DNA of 64,000 bases, taken from assembly GCF_008065155.1 (NCBI RefSeq), contig NZ_CP042819.1, forward strand, positions 868,001 to 932,000, read 5' to 3'. The first letter of the stretch is position 1. Each line of letters begins with the position of its first letter. The position numbers were made by a program, and so were the translations under genes. Of this stretch, positions 32,233 to 44,163 are shown piece after piece. The DNA comes from Octadecabacter sp. SW4 (GTDB lineage Bacteria > Pseudomonadota > Alphaproteobacteria > Rhodobacterales > Rhodobacteraceae). The notes below the pieces were generated by a model. The model was not told the origin of the DNA, searched no databases, and was given only the letters and a program-made list of their open reading frames with translations.

Positions 32233-33636
32233 TCAGTCGATTTGATAGGGCAGGGTGCCGCGATGGTTCAACTCCACCCGCAATTCGCGTTCCAGTGGCG
32301 GAACGGCCCGTTGATGGCAGGTGCGACGTTCGCAAATCCGGCAGGAAATCCCAATGGGTTCATAGGCTTGTGCGGCCTCCACATCCATGTGATCAGCATA
32401 GACCAACGCGCCCGCATGGCGCACTTCGCAGCCCAAACCGATGGCATAGCGGCGGGTGGGCGCATCAAATGCTCCGCCGGATTTCGTCACGTCTCGCGCC
32501 AGACAAAAATAACGCACCCCGTCCGGTGTTTCTGCCAACTGCCGCAGCCAGCGCCCCGGCGTTTCAAAGGCGCGATGCACATTCCACAGCGGGCACGCCC
32601 CGCCGTAGCGGGCAAATTGCAAGGTCGTGGCCGAATGGCGTTTGGTGATCGTTCCCGCCGGATCGACGCGCACGAAAAAGAACGGGATCCCCTTGGCCCC
32701 GGGGCGCTGCATCGTCGACAGCCGGTGCGCGACCTGTTCAAGGGACGCACCAAACTGATCGGCAAGACGCTCAAGATCGTGGCGGGTGTCCTGTGCGGCC
32801 TGCAAAAACGCGCCGTAGGGCATCAGGGCCGCGCCTGCAAAGTAGTTTGCAAGGCCGATTTTGGCGATGGCGCGGGCTTGGTGTGAATGGAACCGCGCCA
32901 GATCCAGCGTCGCCTCAAGCAGCTTGTCCTGCGTGATCAGCGCCAGTTGCATGAACAGTTGAAACGCCTGCGTCGGGGCGGCGGCGCGCGTCGAAATATG
33001 CAGCCGGCGCGTGTCGGGATCAAAGTGGCGCAACGCCCCGTCGGTATCACTGAAATGCACCGTGATCCCATGCGCGCCAAGCGCCGACACGGCGGCAGCA
33101 ACCGGGCTTGGCTTGGTGCTGGCCTGGGTGGCAAACCGTTCGGCGGCGCGGTCCACCGCATCAATGTAATTGTCGCAATAATGAAAGAAGTCGCGCACTT
33201 CTTCCCAGGGGCTGGGTTGCAGACGGGCATCTTCGCGCCCCAGGGCTTCGTCGAGCGATGCAAGGCGTTCATGCGTCTGGCGATAGGCTGAATGCAGGTC
33301 CAGAAAGGCGCGGGTCAGGGCTGGCGCATTCGAGGCCGCAAGTCGCAAATCAGCAAGCGGCGGCGTCGGGCCGGAAAAGATCGGATCAGCCAGGGCCTCG
33401 CGCATGTCACCGACAAGGCGGGCCTCGTCGCCCGATTGCAATTCGGTCACGTCAAAACCAAACTCCTGCGCCAGATTGACCACGACCGTGGTGCTTATGG
33501 GGCGGTTGTTGTTCTCCATCTGGTTAAGATAGGGCAGAGATACGCCCAGCTTTTCGGCGAATGCTTTTTGCGTCAGCCCCAGACGGCTGCGCAGCTCGCG
33601 CAGTTTCACACCGGCATAGAGTTTTTGAACGGCCAT
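32233..33636 (-). CDS. pccR: Short-chain fatty acyl regulator PccR (ScfR family)
   Basis: 467 aa. N-terminal XRE-type helix-turn-helix ('LRSRLGLTQKAFAEKLGVSL'), a middle ImmA/IrrE-like (DUF955) region, and a C-terminal ScfR domain with a Cys cluster 'CRICERRTCHQ'. In Rhodobacter sphaeroides PccR activates propionyl-CoA carboxylase genes in response to propionyl-CoA; the neighbouring pccB supports the same role. TTTGCAA-type sites lie just upstream of its own start (33652-33680) and upstream of pccB. Confidence 0.9.
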   Translation of the reverse strand: MAVQKLYAGVKLRELRSRLGLTQKAFAEKLGVSLPYLNQMENNNRPISTTVVVNLAQEFGFDVTELQSGDEARLVGDMREALADPIFSGPTPPLADLRLAASNAPALTRAFLDLHSAYRQTHERLASLDEALGREDARLQPSPWEEVRDFFHYCDNYIDAVDRAAERFATQASTKPSPVAAAVSALGAHGITVHFSDTDGALRHFDPDTRRLHISTRAAAPTQAFQLFMQLALITQDKLLEATLDLARFHSHQARAIAKIGLANYFAGAALMPYGAFLQAAQDTRHDLERLADQFGASLEQVAHRLSTMQRPGAKGIPFFFVRVDPAGTITKRHSATTLQFARYGGACPLWNVHRAFETPGRWLRQLAETPDGVRYFCLARDVTKSGGAFDAPTRRYAIGLGCEVRHAGALVYADHMDVEAAQAYEPIGISCRICERRTCHQRAVPPLERELRVELNHRGTLPYQID

Positions 33637-33651
33637 GATCCCCTCCGCAAC

Positions 33652-33680
33652 TTTGCAATCGCAATGCTAGGCTTTGCAAA
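33652..33680. promoter_or_regulatory. Putative PccR binding site at its own promoter
   Basis: TTTGCAA at 33652 and TTTGCAAA at 33673 are spaced 21 nt start to start, two helical turns, with a further CGCAA between them. They lie 16-44 nt upstream of the pccR ATG. PccR of Rhodobacter is reported to recognise TTTGCAAA elements, so autoregulation is likely. Confidence 0.6.
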
Positions 33681-33681
33681 C

Positions 33682-34901
33682 TTAGTCGGCAAGCCCCAGC
33701 GCCCGTTCACGCCAGACGACAAACAGCACCGACAGCAGCGCCGCGACGGCGGTGCCCAGCATCAGCCATTGCAGTGGCAATGTCCCCGTTTCGATATCCA
33801 GCATCCCGCCTGCAAACTGCGACAGGCCCGCGCCGCCACCCACCATCAGCGCACCACCCAAGCCGCTGGCCGTGCCCGCCAGATGTGGGCGCACCGATAG
33901 CAACCCGGCTGTGACATTGGGCAGGGTGATCCCATTCCCCGCCCCAGGAAGGTGCAGAAACCAAAGAACAACAGCGGATGATTGTATCCCAGCAATGACA
34001 ACAGCAAGGATGCGCCAAGGCCAAAGATGATGATATACGATCCCAGCATCGCCATGCGGTTCACACCAAGCTTGACCGAGTATTTGCCCGACATGAAATT
34101 CCCGAAGGCATAGCCGACCGCAGGCGCGCCCAGAGCAATCCCGCTCCAGAGCGGGGTCAGCCCAAAAACCTCGCTCGCCACGAATGACGCCCCGCCCAGC
34201 AGGGCAAAAAATGCGCCCGATGCGAAAGCGGCGCACATCGCGTAGCCCCAAAAGCGCGGCGAGACCAGCAATTCAGGGTAGCCACGCAATTGATCCGCGA
34301 AACTGACGCCCTGTCCGGCGATCGTTTCGCCCTGATCAAACCAGACCAGCACGAAGACGCCGGCCCCGCTTAGCGCCAGAAACACAAAGGTCGCGTGCCA
34401 GTTGATCAACTGGTCCAGCGCCCCGCCGATCATCGGCCCGAACATCGGCACAAGGGCCATGCCCATCGTCACGAAGCCGATCATGGATGCGGCCTGTTCC
34501 TGGGGCACCATGTCGCGCACAACGGCGCGCGACAGCACCAGGCCCGTCGCCACGGCTGCCTGCATCATCCTGAAAAACAGGAATGCTTCGATCGCAGTGG
34601 AGAGCAAGGCGCCAATTGTCGCGATCACGAAAATTGCCAATGCAATCAAGGTGATGCTGCGCCGCCCATAGCGATCCGAAATCGGCCCGATCAGAACCTG
34701 CAGCACGGCGGTGGTAGCCAGATAGCCCGACAGCGAGATTTGCATGATCGCGTAATCGGTCTTGAAATAGAGTGCCATCGTGTTCAGCGAGGGCAGGAAA
34801 ATCGACATGTTCAAAGCCGAAATGCCCGCGATCATGATCAACGTAAAAATATGTGGCGGCGTCGTGCGATCAAGAAAGCGCACCAGAGGTCTATCTGTCA
34901 T
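33682..34901 (-). pseudogene. MFS transporter (Bcr/CflA-like), interrupted by a single-base frameshift
   Basis: Drug-efflux-type major facilitator, about 12 hydrophobic segments over 406 aa when repaired. 'QISLSGYLATTAVLQVLIGPISDRYGRR' holds the DRYGRR loop between helices 2 and 3, and 'LVLSRAVVRDMVPQEQAASM' is typical of Bcr/CflA. At 33942-33945 (+ strand CCCC) one base is missing: adding it joins 'FFGFCTFLG' to 'AGNGITLPNVTAGLL'. Without it the protein stops at 33846 and loses the last helices. Divergent from pccB; the gene is upstream of pccR on the same strand. Confidence 0.85.
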
Positions 34902-34960
34902 TGCACATGACTAGGCCCGCCGCCGATGGCTGTCCAACGCAAACGACACCGGATCGGCAG

Positions 34961-35013
34961 TTTGCAATATTGCAGTTATGCAAGATGGAAGATCGGTTGG
35001 TTTGCAAATTTGC
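34961..35013. promoter_or_regulatory. Putative PccR binding sites upstream of pccB
   Basis: TTTGCAATATTGCA (34961-34974, containing the perfect palindrome TGCAATATTGCA) and TTTGCAAATTTGC (35001-35013) lie 66-120 nt upstream of the pccB start, with ATGCAA in between. They are the same type of sites as at the pccR promoter. Confidence 0.6.
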
Positions 35014-35079
35014 CCATTCCTGCTTTCCCGCGCGCCCGATGCAGCATAGTCTGCCCCAAAGAGACAAGGGCAAAATCAC

Positions 35080-36612
35080 ATGAGCGACATCCTGCAAGAA
35101 CTCGAATCCCGGCGCGCGACGGCGTATCAGGGCGGTGGCGACAAACGGATTGCCGCGCAGCACGCCAAGGGCAAGCTGACCGCGCGCGAACGGATTGACC
35201 TGCTGCTGGACGAGGAGAGCTTCGAGGAATTCGATACCTTCGTCGCTCATCGCAGCACCGATTTCGGCATGGAAAAACAACGCCCCTACGGGGATGGTGT
35301 GGTTACGGGCTGGGGCACGGTCAATGGTCGTCAGGTCTATGTGTTCAGTCAGGATTTCACCGTGCTGGGCGGGTCGGTCAGCGCGACCCATGCCGCAAAG
35401 ATCTGCAAGATCATGGATATGGCGATGCAAAACGGCGCGCCCGTGATCGGCCTAAACGATTCCGGCGGCGCGCGTATTCAGGAAGGGGTCGATGCCCTGG
35501 CTGGCTACGCCGAGATTTTTCAGCGCAACATCATGGCCAGCGGTGTCATTCCGCAGATCAGCGTGGTGATGGGGCCTTGTGCAGGTGGTGCGGTCTATTC
35601 CCCCGCGATGACCGACTTTATCTTTATGGTCAAGGATTCCAGCTATATGTTCGTGACCGGCCCCGACGTCGTGAAAACCGTCACGAACGAGGTAGTGACA
35701 GCCGAAGAACTGGGCGGCGCCAGCACCCATACCCGCAAATCCAGCGTGGCCGATGGCGCCTTTGAAAACGATGTGGAGGCATTGGCCGAGGTCCGCCGCC
35801 TGATTGATTTCCTGCCGCTCAACAATGTCGCAAAGCCGCCCGTGCGCCCCTTCTTTGACGATGTGGGCCGTCTTGATGACAGCCTTGATACGTTGATCCC
35901 CGATAACGCCAACGCGCCCTACGACATGAAGGAATTGATCCTGAAACTGGCGGACGAGGGTGATTTTTACGAAATTCAGGAAGATTTCGCCAAGAATATC
36001 ATCACCGGTTTCGTGCGCCTTGAAGGGTCCACGGTCGGCGTTGTCGCCAATCAGCCGATGGTGCTGGCGGGCTGTCTGGATATTGACAGTTCGCGCAAGG
36101 CGGCGCGCTTTGTGCGCTTTTGCGATGCCTTTGAAATTCCGATCCTGACACTGGTCGATGTACCCGGCTTTTTGCCCGGCACCGGACAAGAGTTGGGCGG
36201 CGTCATCAAACACGGCGCGAAACTGCTGTTTGCCTATGGCGAGGCGACCGTGCCCAAGGTGACTGTCATCACCCGCAAGGCCTATGGCGGCGCATACGAC
36301 GTGATGGCGTCCAAGCATCTGCGCGGCGATTTCAACTATGCCTGGCCCACGGCGGAAATCGCCGTGATGGGGGCCAAGGGGGCCACCGAAATCATCCACC
36401 GCGCCGATCTGGGGGATGCCGACAAAATCGCAGGCCATACCAAGGACTACGAGGATCGTTTCGCCAATCCGTTTGTCGCTGCAGAACGCGGTTTCATCGA
36501 CGAGGTGATCATGCCCCATTCGACCCGCAAACGTGTCTGCCGCGCCTTTGCCTCCCTGCGCGGCAAACGCCTGACAAACCCGTGGAAAAAGCACGACAAT
36601 ATCCCGCTATGA
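35080..36612 (+). CDS. pccB: Propionyl-CoA carboxylase, beta (carboxyltransferase) subunit
   Basis: Transfers carboxyl from biotin to propionyl-CoA, giving methylmalonyl-CoA. 510 aa with two crotonase-type halves: oxyanion-hole stretches '[20 protein letters not shown]' with '[20 protein letters not shown]' in the N-terminal half and '[20 protein letters not shown]' with '[16 protein letters not shown]' in the C-terminal half. ATG 35080 has AAGGG about 11 nt upstream. Next gene overlaps by 4 nt; pccA follows after four small genes. Confidence 0.96.
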
Positions 36613-38338: not shown

Positions 38339-38374
38339 CCGCCGTTGGTGCCGCCGTGCGCCAGCGGCGGTTTT
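38339..38374 (+). terminator. Intrinsic terminator between lipoprotein gene and pccA
   Basis: CCGCCGTTGGTGC and GCGCCAGCGGCGG pair over 13 bp with two G-U pairs, loop of 6, followed by TTTT. The tail ends 22 nt before the pccA ATG. A shorter CGCCCC-tc-GGGGCG hairpin precedes it at about 38310. Confidence 0.65.
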
Positions 38375-38395
38375 GCATTCAAAGGACCGTTTCCC

Positions 38396-40393
38396 ATGTT
38401 CAAGAAAATCCTGATCGCCAATCGCGGCGAAATTGCCTGCCGCGTGATCAAGACCGCCAAGCTGATGGGCATCCAGACGGTCGCGATCTATTCGGATGCG
38501 GATCGCAACGCGCTGCACGTCAAGATGGCGGACGAAGCGGTGCATATCGGCCCCAGTCCCGCCAACCAGTCCTATATCGTCATCGACAAGGTGATGGAGG
38601 CGGTCAAGAAGACCGGTGCCGAGGCCGTCCATCCCGGCTACGGTTTCCTGAGCGAAAACAGCAAGTTTGCCGAAGCACTGTCAGCCGCTGGCGTTGCCTT
38701 TATCGGCCCGCCGGTGAACGCCATCGAAGCGATGGGCGACAAGATCACCAGCAAAAAGCTGGCACAAGAGGCTGGCGTCAGCACCGTGCCCGGCTATATG
38801 GGCCTGATTGCGGACGCTGATGAGGCGGTGAAAATTTCCAACGAAATCGGCTATCCGGTCATGATCAAGGCGTCAGCGGGCGGCGGCGGCAAGGGGATGC
38901 GCATCGCCTGGAATGACGCCGAGGCCCGCGAGGGTTTCCAATCCTCGAAAAACGAGGCCGCCAGCAGCTTTGGCGATGATCGCATTTTCATCGAAAAGTT
39001 CGTCACCCAGCCCCGCCACATCGAAATTCAGGTGCTGGCTGACAGCCACGGCAACACGATTTACCTGAACGAGCGCGAGTGCAGCATCCAGCGTCGCAAC
39101 CAAAAGGTCATCGAGGAAGCTCCCAGCCCGTTTCTGGACGAAAAGACCCGCAAGGCAATGGGCGAGCAATCCTGCGCGCTGGCCGCCGCCGTGGGCTACG
39201 CCTCCGCCGGAACCGTCGAATTTATCGTTGATGGGGATCGCAACTTCTACTTCCTTGAGATGAACACCCGCTTGCAGGTGGAACACCCGGTGACCGAGCT
39301 GATCACCGGTATTGATCTGGTCGAACAGATGATCCGTGTCGCTTATGGCGAAAAGCTGGTAATCAAGCAAAAGGATGTGCAGCGCAACGGCTGGGCGATG
39401 GAAAGCCGTCTTTACGCCGAAGACCCCTATCGCGGTTTTTTGCCCTCAATCGGGCGTCTGACCCGCTATCGCCCCCCCGCCGAGGAGGCCGAGCAGAGCC
39501 GCGCCGTGCGCAACGACACCGGCGTGTTCGAGGGCGGCGAGATCAGCATGTTCTACGATCCGATGATCGCCAAGCTTTGCACTTGGGGGCTGGACCGCGC
39601 GACCGCCATCGAGGAAATGCGCAACGCGCTGGACGGCTTCGAGGTGGAAGGGATCGGGCATAACCTGCCGTTTCTGGCCGCCGTTTATGATCATCCGAAA
39701 TTCATTGCCGGTGAAATGACCACCGCCTTTATCGAGGAAGAATATCCCGAAGGATTTGAAGGTGTTACCCTTCCCGAGGCCGAGGCGAACCGGGTCGCCG
39801 CCGCTGCCGTTGCCATGTATCGGGTTTGCGAAATCCGGCGCGCCCAGATCAGCGGGCGCATGGACAACCATGAACGGGTTGTCGGGCAGGACTGGGTCGT
39901 AACCTTTGGGAATGGCACGGCCAGGGCCAATGTGGATGCTGATCGCGGTGGCGCGACGGTGACGCTTGACGGGACAATCTACCGCGTCGAAGGCAGATGG
40001 ACGCCGGGCCAGACCCTTGCGCGCCTGACCGTCGATGGCACGCCGCTGGTTCTCAAGGTTGATCTGATTTCGGCGGGCTTCCGCATCCGCTATCGCGGCG
40101 CTGACCTGAAAGTGCGGGTGCGCACGCCGCGTCAGGCCGAACTGGCCGCGTTGATGCCGGAAAAACTGGCGCCCGATACGTCTAAACTGCTGCTTTGCCC
40201 GATGCCCGGGCTGATCGTCAAAGTCGATGTCGAAGTTGGCGACGAGGTGCAGGAAGGGCAGACCCTTTGTTCTGTCGAGGCCATGAAGATGGAAAACATC
40301 CTGCGGGCCGAACGCAAGGGAATTGTCATTAAAATCAACGCGGTTGCCGGTGACAGCCTCGCCGTTGACGAAGTGATCATGGAGTTTGAATAA
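38396..40393 (+). CDS. pccA: Propionyl-CoA carboxylase, alpha (biotin carboxylase) subunit
   Basis: 665 aa. Biotin carboxylase start 'KKILIANRGEIACRVIKTAK', ATP-grasp Gly-rich loop 'IKASAGGGGKGMRIAW', active site 'EMNTRLQVEHPVTE', and the C-terminal biotinyl domain with the carrier Lys in 'VEAMKMEN' (about Lys 631). Works with PccB. ATG 38396 has AAAGGA upstream; a terminator-like hairpin lies just before it, so it may have its own promoter or be attenuated. Confidence 0.96.
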   Translation: MFKKILIANRGEIACRVIKTAKLMGIQTVAIYSDADRNALHVKMADEAVHIGPSPANQSYIVIDKVMEAVKKTGAEAVHPGYGFLSENSKFAEALSAAGVAFIGPPVNAIEAMGDKITSKKLAQEAGVSTVPGYMGLIADADEAVKISNEIGYPVMIKASAGGGGKGMRIAWNDAEAREGFQSSKNEAASSFGDDRIFIEKFVTQPRHIEIQVLADSHGNTIYLNERECSIQRRNQKVIEEAPSPFLDEKTRKAMGEQSCALAAAVGYASAGTVEFIVDGDRNFYFLEMNTRLQVEHPVTELITGIDLVEQMIRVAYGEKLVIKQKDVQRNGWAMESRLYAEDPYRGFLPSIGRLTRYRPPAEEAEQSRAVRNDTGVFEGGEISMFYDPMIAKLCTWGLDRATAIEEMRNALDGFEVEGIGHNLPFLAAVYDHPKFIAGEMTTAFIEEEYPEGFEGVTLPEAEANRVAAAAVAMYRVCEIRRAQISGRMDNHERVVGQDWVVTFGNGTARANVDADRGGATVTLDGTIYRVEGRWTPGQTLARLTVDGTPLVLKVDLISAGFRIRYRGADLKVRVRTPRQAELAALMPEKLAPDTSKLLLCPMPGLIVKVDVEVGDEVQEGQTLCSVEAMKMENILRAERKGIVIKINAVAGDSLAVDEVIMEFE

Positions 40394-41078: not shown

Positions 41079-42062
41079 ATGGACGTATTATTGCATATTG
41101 GTGCGCATCGCACCGGAACAACAACTTTTCAGTGCTTTTTGCAGCGCAACCAAACCCCCTTGTGGGAAGCGGGGGTGGCCGTCTGGACACCTGAGCGCAC
41201 CCGCAACGGCCTGATGGCCGGGCTGGTGCGCCGCCCGCAAGATATCACCGAACAGGTTGAACGCACCGGCACGCGGTCCTGCGGCGTGATGCGCGTTGAG
41301 ATCGCCCGCACACGCGCGCTTGGCATGCGCCAGTTGATCGTCTCCGAGGAAAACATGATCGGCGCGATGCGCAACAACCTGCGTGAAGGGCTGCTTTATC
41401 CGCTCTTGAACGAACGCCTCATGCGGTTTCGCGCGGCCTTTGCCGATAGCTGCAGCCGCATCGCGATCGGCATCCGGTCCTATGACACGCTTTGGGCGTC
41501 GCAACTGGCCTTTGCGTTGACGCAGGGGCAGGCTGCCCCCGACCGCGCCGATCTTGACCGGTTGGTGACCCAGCCGCGCACATGGCGCAAGATCATCCGC
41601 GAGGTGGCTGGCGTCTTTCCAAAGGCCGAAATCGTTGTCTGGCCGTTTGAACGGCTTGTCGGGCAGCCTGATCGCCAATTGCAGATCCTGACCGGCGGGG
41701 TCCGTGTCACAAACCCCATGACCGGCCAAAATGATTGGCAAAACCCAAGCCCGCAACCTGCCGCCCTGCGCGAAATCCTCGCGATGCGCGGCGATAAGGA
41801 CGGTGCGGCGCAGATGCCCAGTGCCACCGGGCGCTGGATGCCGTTTGACGACGACCAAAAAGAAATCCTGCGGGCCCAATACCAGATTGATCTGGCGTGG
41901 CTGCGACAGGGCGCAGAAGGGCTGGCACGTTTCGTGGACAGCCACGGCGACGACCGGGAAATACCAAAACAACCCTGCGAGAGCGAGGTCGCGGGCATGA
42001 ACCCGCCCCGCCCACCGCATTCAGGAGGATATGGCTATGGGAAACAGCAAATCGTGGTCTGA
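41079..42062 (+). CDS. Sulfotransferase-like (P-loop) protein
   Basis: 327 aa. The N-terminus '[20 protein letters not shown]' is the PAPS 5'-phosphosulfate-binding P-loop of bacterial sulfotransferase-like proteins, and '[16 protein letters not shown]' the usual following helix. True sulfotransferase activity is unproven. In-frame starts upstream reach 41013; ATG 41079 is chosen as it begins the family's first strand. Its last 26 nt overlap the mutase gene start. Confidence 0.78.
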
Positions 42063-44163
42063 GACGGCCGCCGCCGAACTGCGCGGGCGCAGTGTCGATG
42101 ATCTGACGTGGCACACGCTGGAAGGGATCGCCGTGCAGCCGCTTTACACGGCGGAAGATACCGACGGGTTGGCCCATCTTGGCACGGTTCCGGGGCAGGC
42201 ACCCTTTACCCGCGGCGTCAAGGCGACGATGTATGCCGGCCGCCCCTGGACCATCCGCCAATACGCGGGCTTTTCCACCGCCGAAGAATCCAATGCATTC
42301 TACCGCAAGGCCTTGGCCGCAGGGCAGCAAGGCGTCAGCGTTGCCTTTGATCTGGCCACCCACCGCGGCTATGACAGCGACCACCCCCGCGTCGAAGGCG
42401 ATGTCGGCAAGGCCGGCGTGGCCATCGACAGCGTCGAGGATATGAAAATCCTGTTTGACGGCATCCCGCTTGATAAGGTCAGCGTGTCGATGACCATGAA
42501 CGGTGCCGTGATCCCGATTCTGGCAAATTTCATCGTCACCGGCGAAGAACAGGGCCACGACAAGGCACTCCTGGCAGGCACGATCCAGAATGACATCCTC
42601 AAGGAATTCATGGTGCGCAACACCTATGTTTATCCGCCCGAACCCTCGATGCGGATTATCTCGGATATCATCGGTTATACCTCTGATTTCATGCCGAAAT
42701 TCAACTCTATTTCGATTTCCGGCTACCACATGCAAGAGGCGGGCGCGAACCTCGTGCAGGAACTGGCCTATACGCTGGCAGACGGGCGTGAATATGTCCG
42801 CACGGCCATCGCGGCAGGCATGGATGTGGACAAATTCGCCCCGCGTCTGTCGTTCTTTTTCGCCATTGGCATGAATTTCTTTATGGAGGCCGCGAAACTG
42901 CGCGCTGCCCGCCTGTTGTGGCACAAGATCATGGCCGAATTTGAACCGAAAAACCCCAAATCCAGCATGCTGCGCACCCATTGCCAAACTTCGGGCGTAT
43001 CCTTGCAGGAACAGGACCCCTATAACAACGTGGTCCGCACCGCCTACGAGGCGATGGCGGCGGCCCTTGGCGGCACACAGTCCCTGCACACCAATGCCCT
43101 GGACGAGGCGATGGGCCTGCCGACCGATTTCAGCTCCCGTATCGCACGCAACACCCAGTTGATTTTGCAGGAAGAAACCGGAATTACCAATGTCGTCGAT
43201 CCCCTTGCGGGCAGCTATTATGTTGAAAAGCTGACCCATGATCTGGCAACGCAAGCCTGGAAATTGATCGAAGAAGTAGAGGAGATGGGCGGCATGACCA
43301 AGGCCGTGGCCAGCGGCATGCCGAAACTGCGTATCGAGGAAACGGCCGCCCGCCGACAGGCTATGATCGACCGCGGCCAGGAGGTAATCGTCGGGGTGAA
43401 CAAGTATCGCCTTGATAAGGAAGACCCGATCGACATTCTTGATATCGACAATGACGCGGTGCGCCAGTCGCAAATTGCCCGCCTTGAAAAGACCCGCGCG
43501 TCCCGTGACGCCGCCACATGCGCGGCGGCGCTTGATGAACTTACCCGCCGGGCGCGCGAGGGCGGGAACCTGTTGGAAGCCGCCGTGGACGCAGCCCGCG
43601 CCCGTGCCTCAGTCGGAGAAATCAGCATGGCTATGGAAAAGGAATTCGGGCGTCACCGTGCCGAAGTCAAAACGCTCGCCGGGGTGTATGGCGCCGCCTA
43701 CGAAGGCGACGCAGGCTTTGCCGCGATCCAGAAATCGGTCGAGGAATTCGCGACCGATGAGGGCCGGCGCCCGCGCATGCTGGTCGTGAAAATGGGGCAG
43801 GACGGGCATGATCGCGGCGCCAAGGTCATCGCCACCGCCTTTGCCGATATTGGCTTTGACGTGGATGTTGGCCCGCTGTTCCAGACCCCTGCCGAGGCGG
43901 CACAGGACGCCGTTGACAATGACGTGCATGTGGTCGGCATTTCCAGTCAGGCAGCGGGCCACAAGACCCTTGCCCCGAAACTGGTGCAGGCGCTCAAGGA
44001 TGCAGGTGCGGGCGATATTATCGTTATTTGTGGGGGGGTTATCCCGCAGCAAGACTATCAGTTCCTGTATGATAATGGCGTCAAGGCGATCTTCGGACCG
44101 GGCACCAACATCCCCGAGGCCGCACAGGATATTCTGCGATTGATCCGCGAGGCACGCAGTTGA
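42037..44163 (+). CDS. scpA: Methylmalonyl-CoA mutase
   Basis: Adenosylcobalamin-dependent rearrangement of (R)-methylmalonyl-CoA to succinyl-CoA, 708 aa, single-chain type. Substrate domain: '[20 protein letters not shown]', '[20 protein letters not shown]', '[13 protein letters not shown]'. C-terminal B12-binding domain: '[20 protein letters not shown]' (DxHxxG with the cobalt His), '[10 protein letters not shown]' and '[10 protein letters not shown]'. ATG 42037 lies 8 nt after AGGAGG; ATG 42031 is too close. It completes the propionate pathway with pccAB; the epimerase is not obviously present. Confidence 0.96.

Follow-up and report, generated by a model that had tools for sequence, protein, structure and literature searches.

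PccR, a regulator of the ScfR family, controls pccB in Rhodobacter sphaeroides, as stated in a passage of PMC12632250, and the deletion of pccR in Rhodobacter capsulatus impairs growth on propionate, according to a section of PMC10370305. The R. sphaeroides regulator is encoded near pccB, which carries TTTGCAAA boxes upstream, and the locus described here shares both features. Cereibacter johrii shares with it the presence of an MFS gene between pccR and pccB.

Two further systems offer points of comparison. PrpR of Mycobacterium tuberculosis, which belongs to the same protein family as PccR, gives a footprint over TTTGCAAA plus TTTGCgAA, described in an excerpt of PMC3420887 as two 8-bp palindromes. 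Unlike our locus, PrpR serves the control of the methylcitrate cycle, and its palindromes lie 1 nt apart, whereas the half-sites of the proximal pccB element described below are 0 nt apart and the pccR boxes start 21 nt apart. RamB of Paracoccus denitrificans is likewise an activator of the ScfR type, one that needs both of its two nearly identical boxes, but it differs in its 18-bp spacer, its glyoxylate cycle target and its other CoA-ester ligands, as set out in part of PMC10370305.

The window, by which we mean the whole stretch of 64,000 nucleotides analysed from Octadecabacter sp. SW4 (NZ_CP042819.1, positions 868,001 to 932,000), holds pccR, an MFS gene and pccB, with TTTGCAA-type words upstream of both pccR and pccB. 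We consider it probable, at roughly 85%, that these words form two clusters of operators for PccR, encoded beside them, through which pccB would be activated and pccR autorepressed, the MFS gene being no direct target and prpE, elsewhere in the genome, a probable third one.

The regulator encoded beside pccB

The gene pccR (32233..33636, minus strand) encodes an ScfR-family regulator of 467 residues, in which an XRE helix-turn-helix is followed by an IrrE-like/Peptidase_M78 middle part and the ScfR C-terminal domain. All of the corresponding Pfam matches are above cut-off (PF13560/PF01381 (HTH_31); PF06114, 79.6 bits; PF09856, 229.8 bits), which is the domain composition of an ScfR regulator. 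The protein is 72% identical to its C. johrii and 75% identical to its R. capsulatus counterpart encoded near pccB, and 72-77% identical to the proteins of C. johrii, R. capsulatus and Ruegeria sediminis found in a similar gene setting. This kinship backs the earlier identification of the neighbouring regulator as a PccR-type ScfR protein, and the start of pccB, 1.4 kb from pccR, provides the expected linkage. Against the RamB profile NF038139, the protein scores 434.4 bits, below the cut-off of 700.

The nearest solved chain is that of M. tuberculosis PrpR (6cyy, E 3.4e-85), and Trp144 of PccR aligns with PrpR Phe155, a residue located by counting along the printed construct. Tryptophan occupies this position in all five of the five aligned PccR proteins, and R. 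sphaeroides PccR is said to carry it there too in a passage of PMC6765138. The genome also encodes a second, more distant ScfR-like protein (L137:4656-5954, C1 about 1150155-1151453; 47.8 bits, and 49 bits to PF09856), for which no IrrE-like domain match appears among the matches listed.

Boxes upstream of pccB and pccR

The four words on which the first-pass annotation drew are all present where it placed them: read directly from the window sequence, TTTGCAA occupies 33652-33658 and TTTGCAAA 33673-33680, with TTTGCAATATTGCA beginning at 34961 and TTTGCAAATTTGC at 35001. Raw counts would seem to favour the view that such words arise by chance, TTTGCAA being common in the genome, and they do lie near expectation. 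In the window, TTTGCAA is observed 14 times against 12.2 expected and TTTGCAAA 3 times against 1.4; across the 3.54-Mb genome, TTTGCAAA occurs 59 times against 41 for the reversed control word, and doublets are found in 5 places against 3 for the reversed control at a gap of 17-47 nt and in 2 places against 1 at a gap of 8-16 nt. Other doublets, at C1:388669 (L136), C1:122602 (L345), C1:2396160 (L347) and C1:2883433 (L348), are surrounded by open reading frames none of which could be linked to propionate on reading, and these were taken as chance. The genome-wide search that the annotation had proposed as a check thus does return a frequency close to chance (59 vs 41), yet the positions of the words are conserved across the loci of the family. 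Used as a means of refutation, genome-wide frequency would almost have dismissed the sites because the words lie so near chance, and it is an uninformative test for sites of this kind. The evidence by which the box words would exceed chance is comparative rather than numerical: they are conserved at fixed offsets in about 90% of loci, compared with 1-2% in shuffles, and we give the chance explanation practically no weight.

Kin of PccR, weak ScfR matches counted in, occur in 186 of the 199 family genomes. For the comparison, 100 loci were taken, one per genome, from the listed PccR matches, mostly best first and with some lower or contig-end matches skipped; pccB was found in 92 of them. Of the 100 loci, 91 have an exact TTTGCAAA in the 120 nt preceding pccR, and of the 92 with pccB, 85 have one in the 170 nt preceding that gene, while dinucleotide shuffles of the same regions yield a mean of 0.92 loci (maximum 4 of 100) and 1.98 loci (maximum 6 of 92), respectively. 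The reversed control word is found 0 times in the upstream regions of pccR and pccB in these loci, and the commonest 8-mer in both regions is TTTGCAAA itself or an overlap shifted by one base. A named set, which may partly overlap the 100 loci, carries exact boxes at pccR in 79 of 80 cases and at pccB in 43 of 55. From these comparisons, the box words look like conserved operator-like sites whose presence tracks that of PccR, an arrangement ordinary for this bacterial family.

Upstream of pccB (35080..36612, plus strand; propionyl-CoA carboxylase carboxyltransferase subunit, PF01039 650 bits), two elements emerge from an alignment of the 92 loci anchored on the proximal box, with the window among the loci offered. 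Its conserved columns are TTTGC half-sites at -40, -32 and -24, TTTGCAAA at 0 and TTTGC at +8, followed by CTTT at +22 and TA...T at +46, the five half-sites sharing a single 8-nt lattice. The window matches this layout, position 34961 corresponding to -40 and 35001 to 0, with weaker copies at -32 and -24. On the 92-locus consensus, its distal element (34961..34984) comprises TTTGCAAT, ATTGCAGT and TATGCAAG at -40, -32 and -24 from the proximal box, and its proximal element (35001..35016) comprises TTTGCAAA and TTTGCCCA at 0 and +8. The TTTGCAAA boxes that characterise PccR control are accordingly present upstream of pccB in the window.

Below these elements lie a predicted -35 (CTTTCC, 35024..35029, plus strand; family consensus CTTTG) and a predicted -10 (TAGTCT, 35047..35052, plus strand; family consensus TAtggT). 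A scan for the sigma-70 consensus returned no promoter at pccB or pccR, and the promoters predicted here derive solely from the family consensus. The position of both elements above the putative -35 and -10 is a geometry that fits an activator. With a propionyl-CoA-type signal, PccR would most likely activate pccB from the distal element, with its three predicted half-sites 8 nt apart, and from the proximal element, with its two. Further downstream on the plus strand, the window holds pccA (38345..40393), for the biotin carboxylase/carrier subunit, and the gene of methylmalonyl-CoA mutase (42031..44163; NF006944, 1267.9 bits); a word scan of the window found no TTTGCAA between the pccB boxes and pccA, and none belonging to the mutase gene upstream of it.

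The first-pass annotation had remarked that the spacing departs from a simple tandem. The arrangement is real, but it is no oddity, the 40-nt spacing at pccB being the norm of the family. Carter and Alber reportedly described the R. sphaeroides pccB motif in 2015 as a TTTGCAAA-N4-TTTGCAAA pair, an exact arrangement that is absent from the window. The same pair is present upstream of pccB in C. johrii, which differs in this respect from the 40-nt distal/proximal form of the window, and it is rare among the pccB loci listed. Because the pair is shown by C. johrii and few others of these loci, the spacing of the window represents the usual form, and the N4 pair is therefore a lineage variant and not a defining feature of the PccR family.

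A different geometry is found at pccR. Its box 1 (33673..33680) is a perfect TTTGCAAA, and box 2 (33652..33659), reading TTTGCAAT on the plus strand and ATTGCAAA on the minus strand, starts at an offset of 21 from it. Counted from where the upstream box begins, the family consensus of pccR has TTG 13 nt ahead of it and TA 10 nt beyond it; the promoter so outlined would have a spacer of 17 nt that encloses the box. Sequence and family consensus together yield, on the minus strand of the window, a predicted -35 (TTGCCG, 33687..33692) that lies over the tail of the MFS reading frame and, after a 17-nt spacer, a predicted -10 (TAGCAT, 33664..33669); box 1 thus falls within the predicted promoter spacer and box 2 over the predicted transcription start. 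A second box with at most one mismatch is found in 55 of the 100 loci, at an offset of 20-22 in 25, of 29-30 in 18, and elsewhere or ambiguously placed in 12, the two offset classes lying about one helical turn apart. The other 45 loci divide into 36 without such a second box and 9 in which the 115 nt preceding pccR contain no exact box. These positions, within the promoter spacer for one box and across the start point for the other, suggest an autorepression geometry, and repression of pccR by PccR is their most likely effect. While the positions of the words, their conservation, their fixed geometry and their tie to the presence of PccR are observed, we infer the binding of PccR, its ligand and the direction of control at each gene.

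The tie to PccR emerges from the genomes in which the regulator is missing. This PccR-less group comprises 28 of the 199 genomes, with no PccR match or a weak one only (E 1.6e-24 or worse), among which pccB is found in 25 (at least 75% identity) and prpE in 24 (at least 65% identity); genomes with middling matches, such as G017, G026, G049, G053, G087, G114, G145 and G173, were placed in neither group. An exact pccB box is present in 86 of 93 genomes with PccR, the window included, but in only 2 of 24 PccR-less ones, 24 of the 25 being counted because the match in L182 starts at residue 22 and leaves its upstream region unreadable. On a PccB tree, the presence of PccR changes 14 times at best, with 4 changes forced by well-supported branches, and in a tree-controlled pair test 2.2 of 4 pairs agree and 0.0 oppose (median p 0.5), a result that is not significant with so few pairs. 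The two genomes that keep an exact pccB box though PccR was not found are L179 (G141) and L184 (G147); L179 keeps the full element and comes from an assembly of 460 contigs, so its PccR may be unassembled.

The boxes might instead be bound by a different ScfR-type regulator, for instance the second ScfR-like protein of this genome, with PccR a mere neighbour, and a passage of PMC6765138 does report that M. tuberculosis RamB and PrpR recognise similar words. The boxes, however, follow the presence of PccR at both pccB and prpE; a weak ScfR match is held by 15 of the 28 PccR-less genomes, yet PccR-less genomes mostly have no boxes, and the second ScfR-like gene adjoins ABC transporter genes. We regard such a regulator as very improbable and keep PccR as the protein that would bind the boxes.

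The MFS gene between pccR and pccB

The Bcr/CflA-type MFS efflux gene (33682..34901, minus strand) is frameshifted in the window, its two frames being represented by open reading frames 33846-34901 and 33682-34251, and its score of 173.1 bits to TIGR00710 (cut-off 200.9) was obtained on the longer of the two frame pieces only. Among the 92 copies compared, no other has a longest single frame below 1080 of 1200 nt; the split may reflect decay or a sequencing error, and a copy from the same genus (L035) is intact in one frame. On the strand that it shares with pccR, the MFS frame closes 46 nt short of that gene, and read-through from it might feed pccR. That a Bcr/CflA-type MFS gene should stay near pccR, a link to propionyl-CoA metabolism, is strange if PccR exerts no control on it.

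According to the first-pass annotation, this gene may join the propionate regulon; the distal element would then serve the divergent MFS promoter as well. The retention of the gene near pccR in 91 of the 100 loci (L035-L134) would agree with such a role, as would the distal element of the window, which precedes the predicted MFS -35 by about 25 nt, and the box of at most one mismatch that precedes pccB in all 61 loci where MFS and pccB share an intergenic region. Evidence against it comes from 30 further loci, 24 with MFS and pccB parted by another gene and more than 450 nt apart and 6 with no pccB in the stretch. None of these 30 carries a box of at most one mismatch in the 120 nt upstream of the MFS gene, and extending the search to 200 nt finds one in 1 of 30, equal to the reversed control, whereas the separated pccB keeps its box in 24 of 24 loci, exactly in 21. 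The MFS gene also stands divergently beside pccB in 15 of 25 PccR-less genomes, 13 of which have no exact pccB box (the exceptions being L179 and L184), and the distal element is present in several loci with no MFS gene, among those listed (e.g. L132-L134). In the window itself, the boxes are intact while the MFS gene is frameshifted.

A predicted promoter of its own (TGGACA ... TAGTCA, 34908..34937, minus strand) can be placed upstream of the MFS gene and has no TTTGCAAA box of its own. The word TGTCCA (plus strand) occurs upstream of the MFS gene in 18 of the 30 separated and 41 of the 61 adjacent loci, with the reversed word in 2 and 2. Given the absence of boxes when the gene is separated and its persistence in genomes that have no PccR, we rejected the MFS gene as a PccR target and consider membership in the regulon unlikely. 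It does not seem to be under direct control of PccR and would rather be a conserved neighbour with its own predicted promoter.

prpE and a possible regulatory loop

A box cluster of the same type is found at 742901-742957, upstream of prpE (L135:1380-3272, equal to G000:C1:740879-742771), a gene immediately preceded, on its own strand, by one for a malic enzyme. Its product, a propionate-CoA ligase, scores 731.7 bits to NF007815, under the cut-off of 955. In this cluster (C1:742901 and 742950), and nowhere else in the genome, TTTGCAA follows a perfect TTTGCAAA on the same strand after 31-61 nt; no closer same-strand pair of the two words was found in this genome, and further half-sites are present in the same upstream stretch.

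Of 68 genomes with PccR, 48 have an exact box in the 200-nt stretch preceding prpE, as does 1 of 24 genomes without the regulator. The 68 comprise the 28 genomes whose PrpE is most like that of the window genome and 40 taken further down the list, and they include two loci (L332, L338) counted despite a misplaced start. The other 20, a Cereibacter-group genome among them, have no exact box. The genomes of L155, L158, L164, L169 and L324, the Cereibacter group among them, have PccR and no box at all upstream of prpE; L324 belongs to the Cereibacter-group genome G046, which differs in this from the window genome. Judged by its upstream boxes, prpE is a probable third target of PccR in the window genome. 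A literature search, in which few subscription papers were reached, returned no paper linking pccR to prpE or to an MFS transporter.

If PccR activates both the removal of propionyl-CoA through pccB and its formation through prpE, synthesis by PrpE would be subject to feedback from the compound that it makes. A closed loop of this kind, in which autorepression of pccR would act as a brake, has in our estimate slightly better than even odds of operating in most of the family. PrpE has also been described as the acrylate-CoA ligase of roseobacters that degrade DMSP, in a passage of PMC5651017, and the loop could on that account reach acrylate metabolism.

The box words of this locus are now operator candidates with exact positions that can be tested, and the idea of a transporter regulated through them is corrected. 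What is usual for the family is the 40-nt arrangement rather than the N4 pair, and prpE is predicted as a further member of the regulon, an extension that is the freshest part of the analysis. PccR was characterised in the Cereibacter group, where prpE has no boxes, and the loop, if real, would have been missed there.
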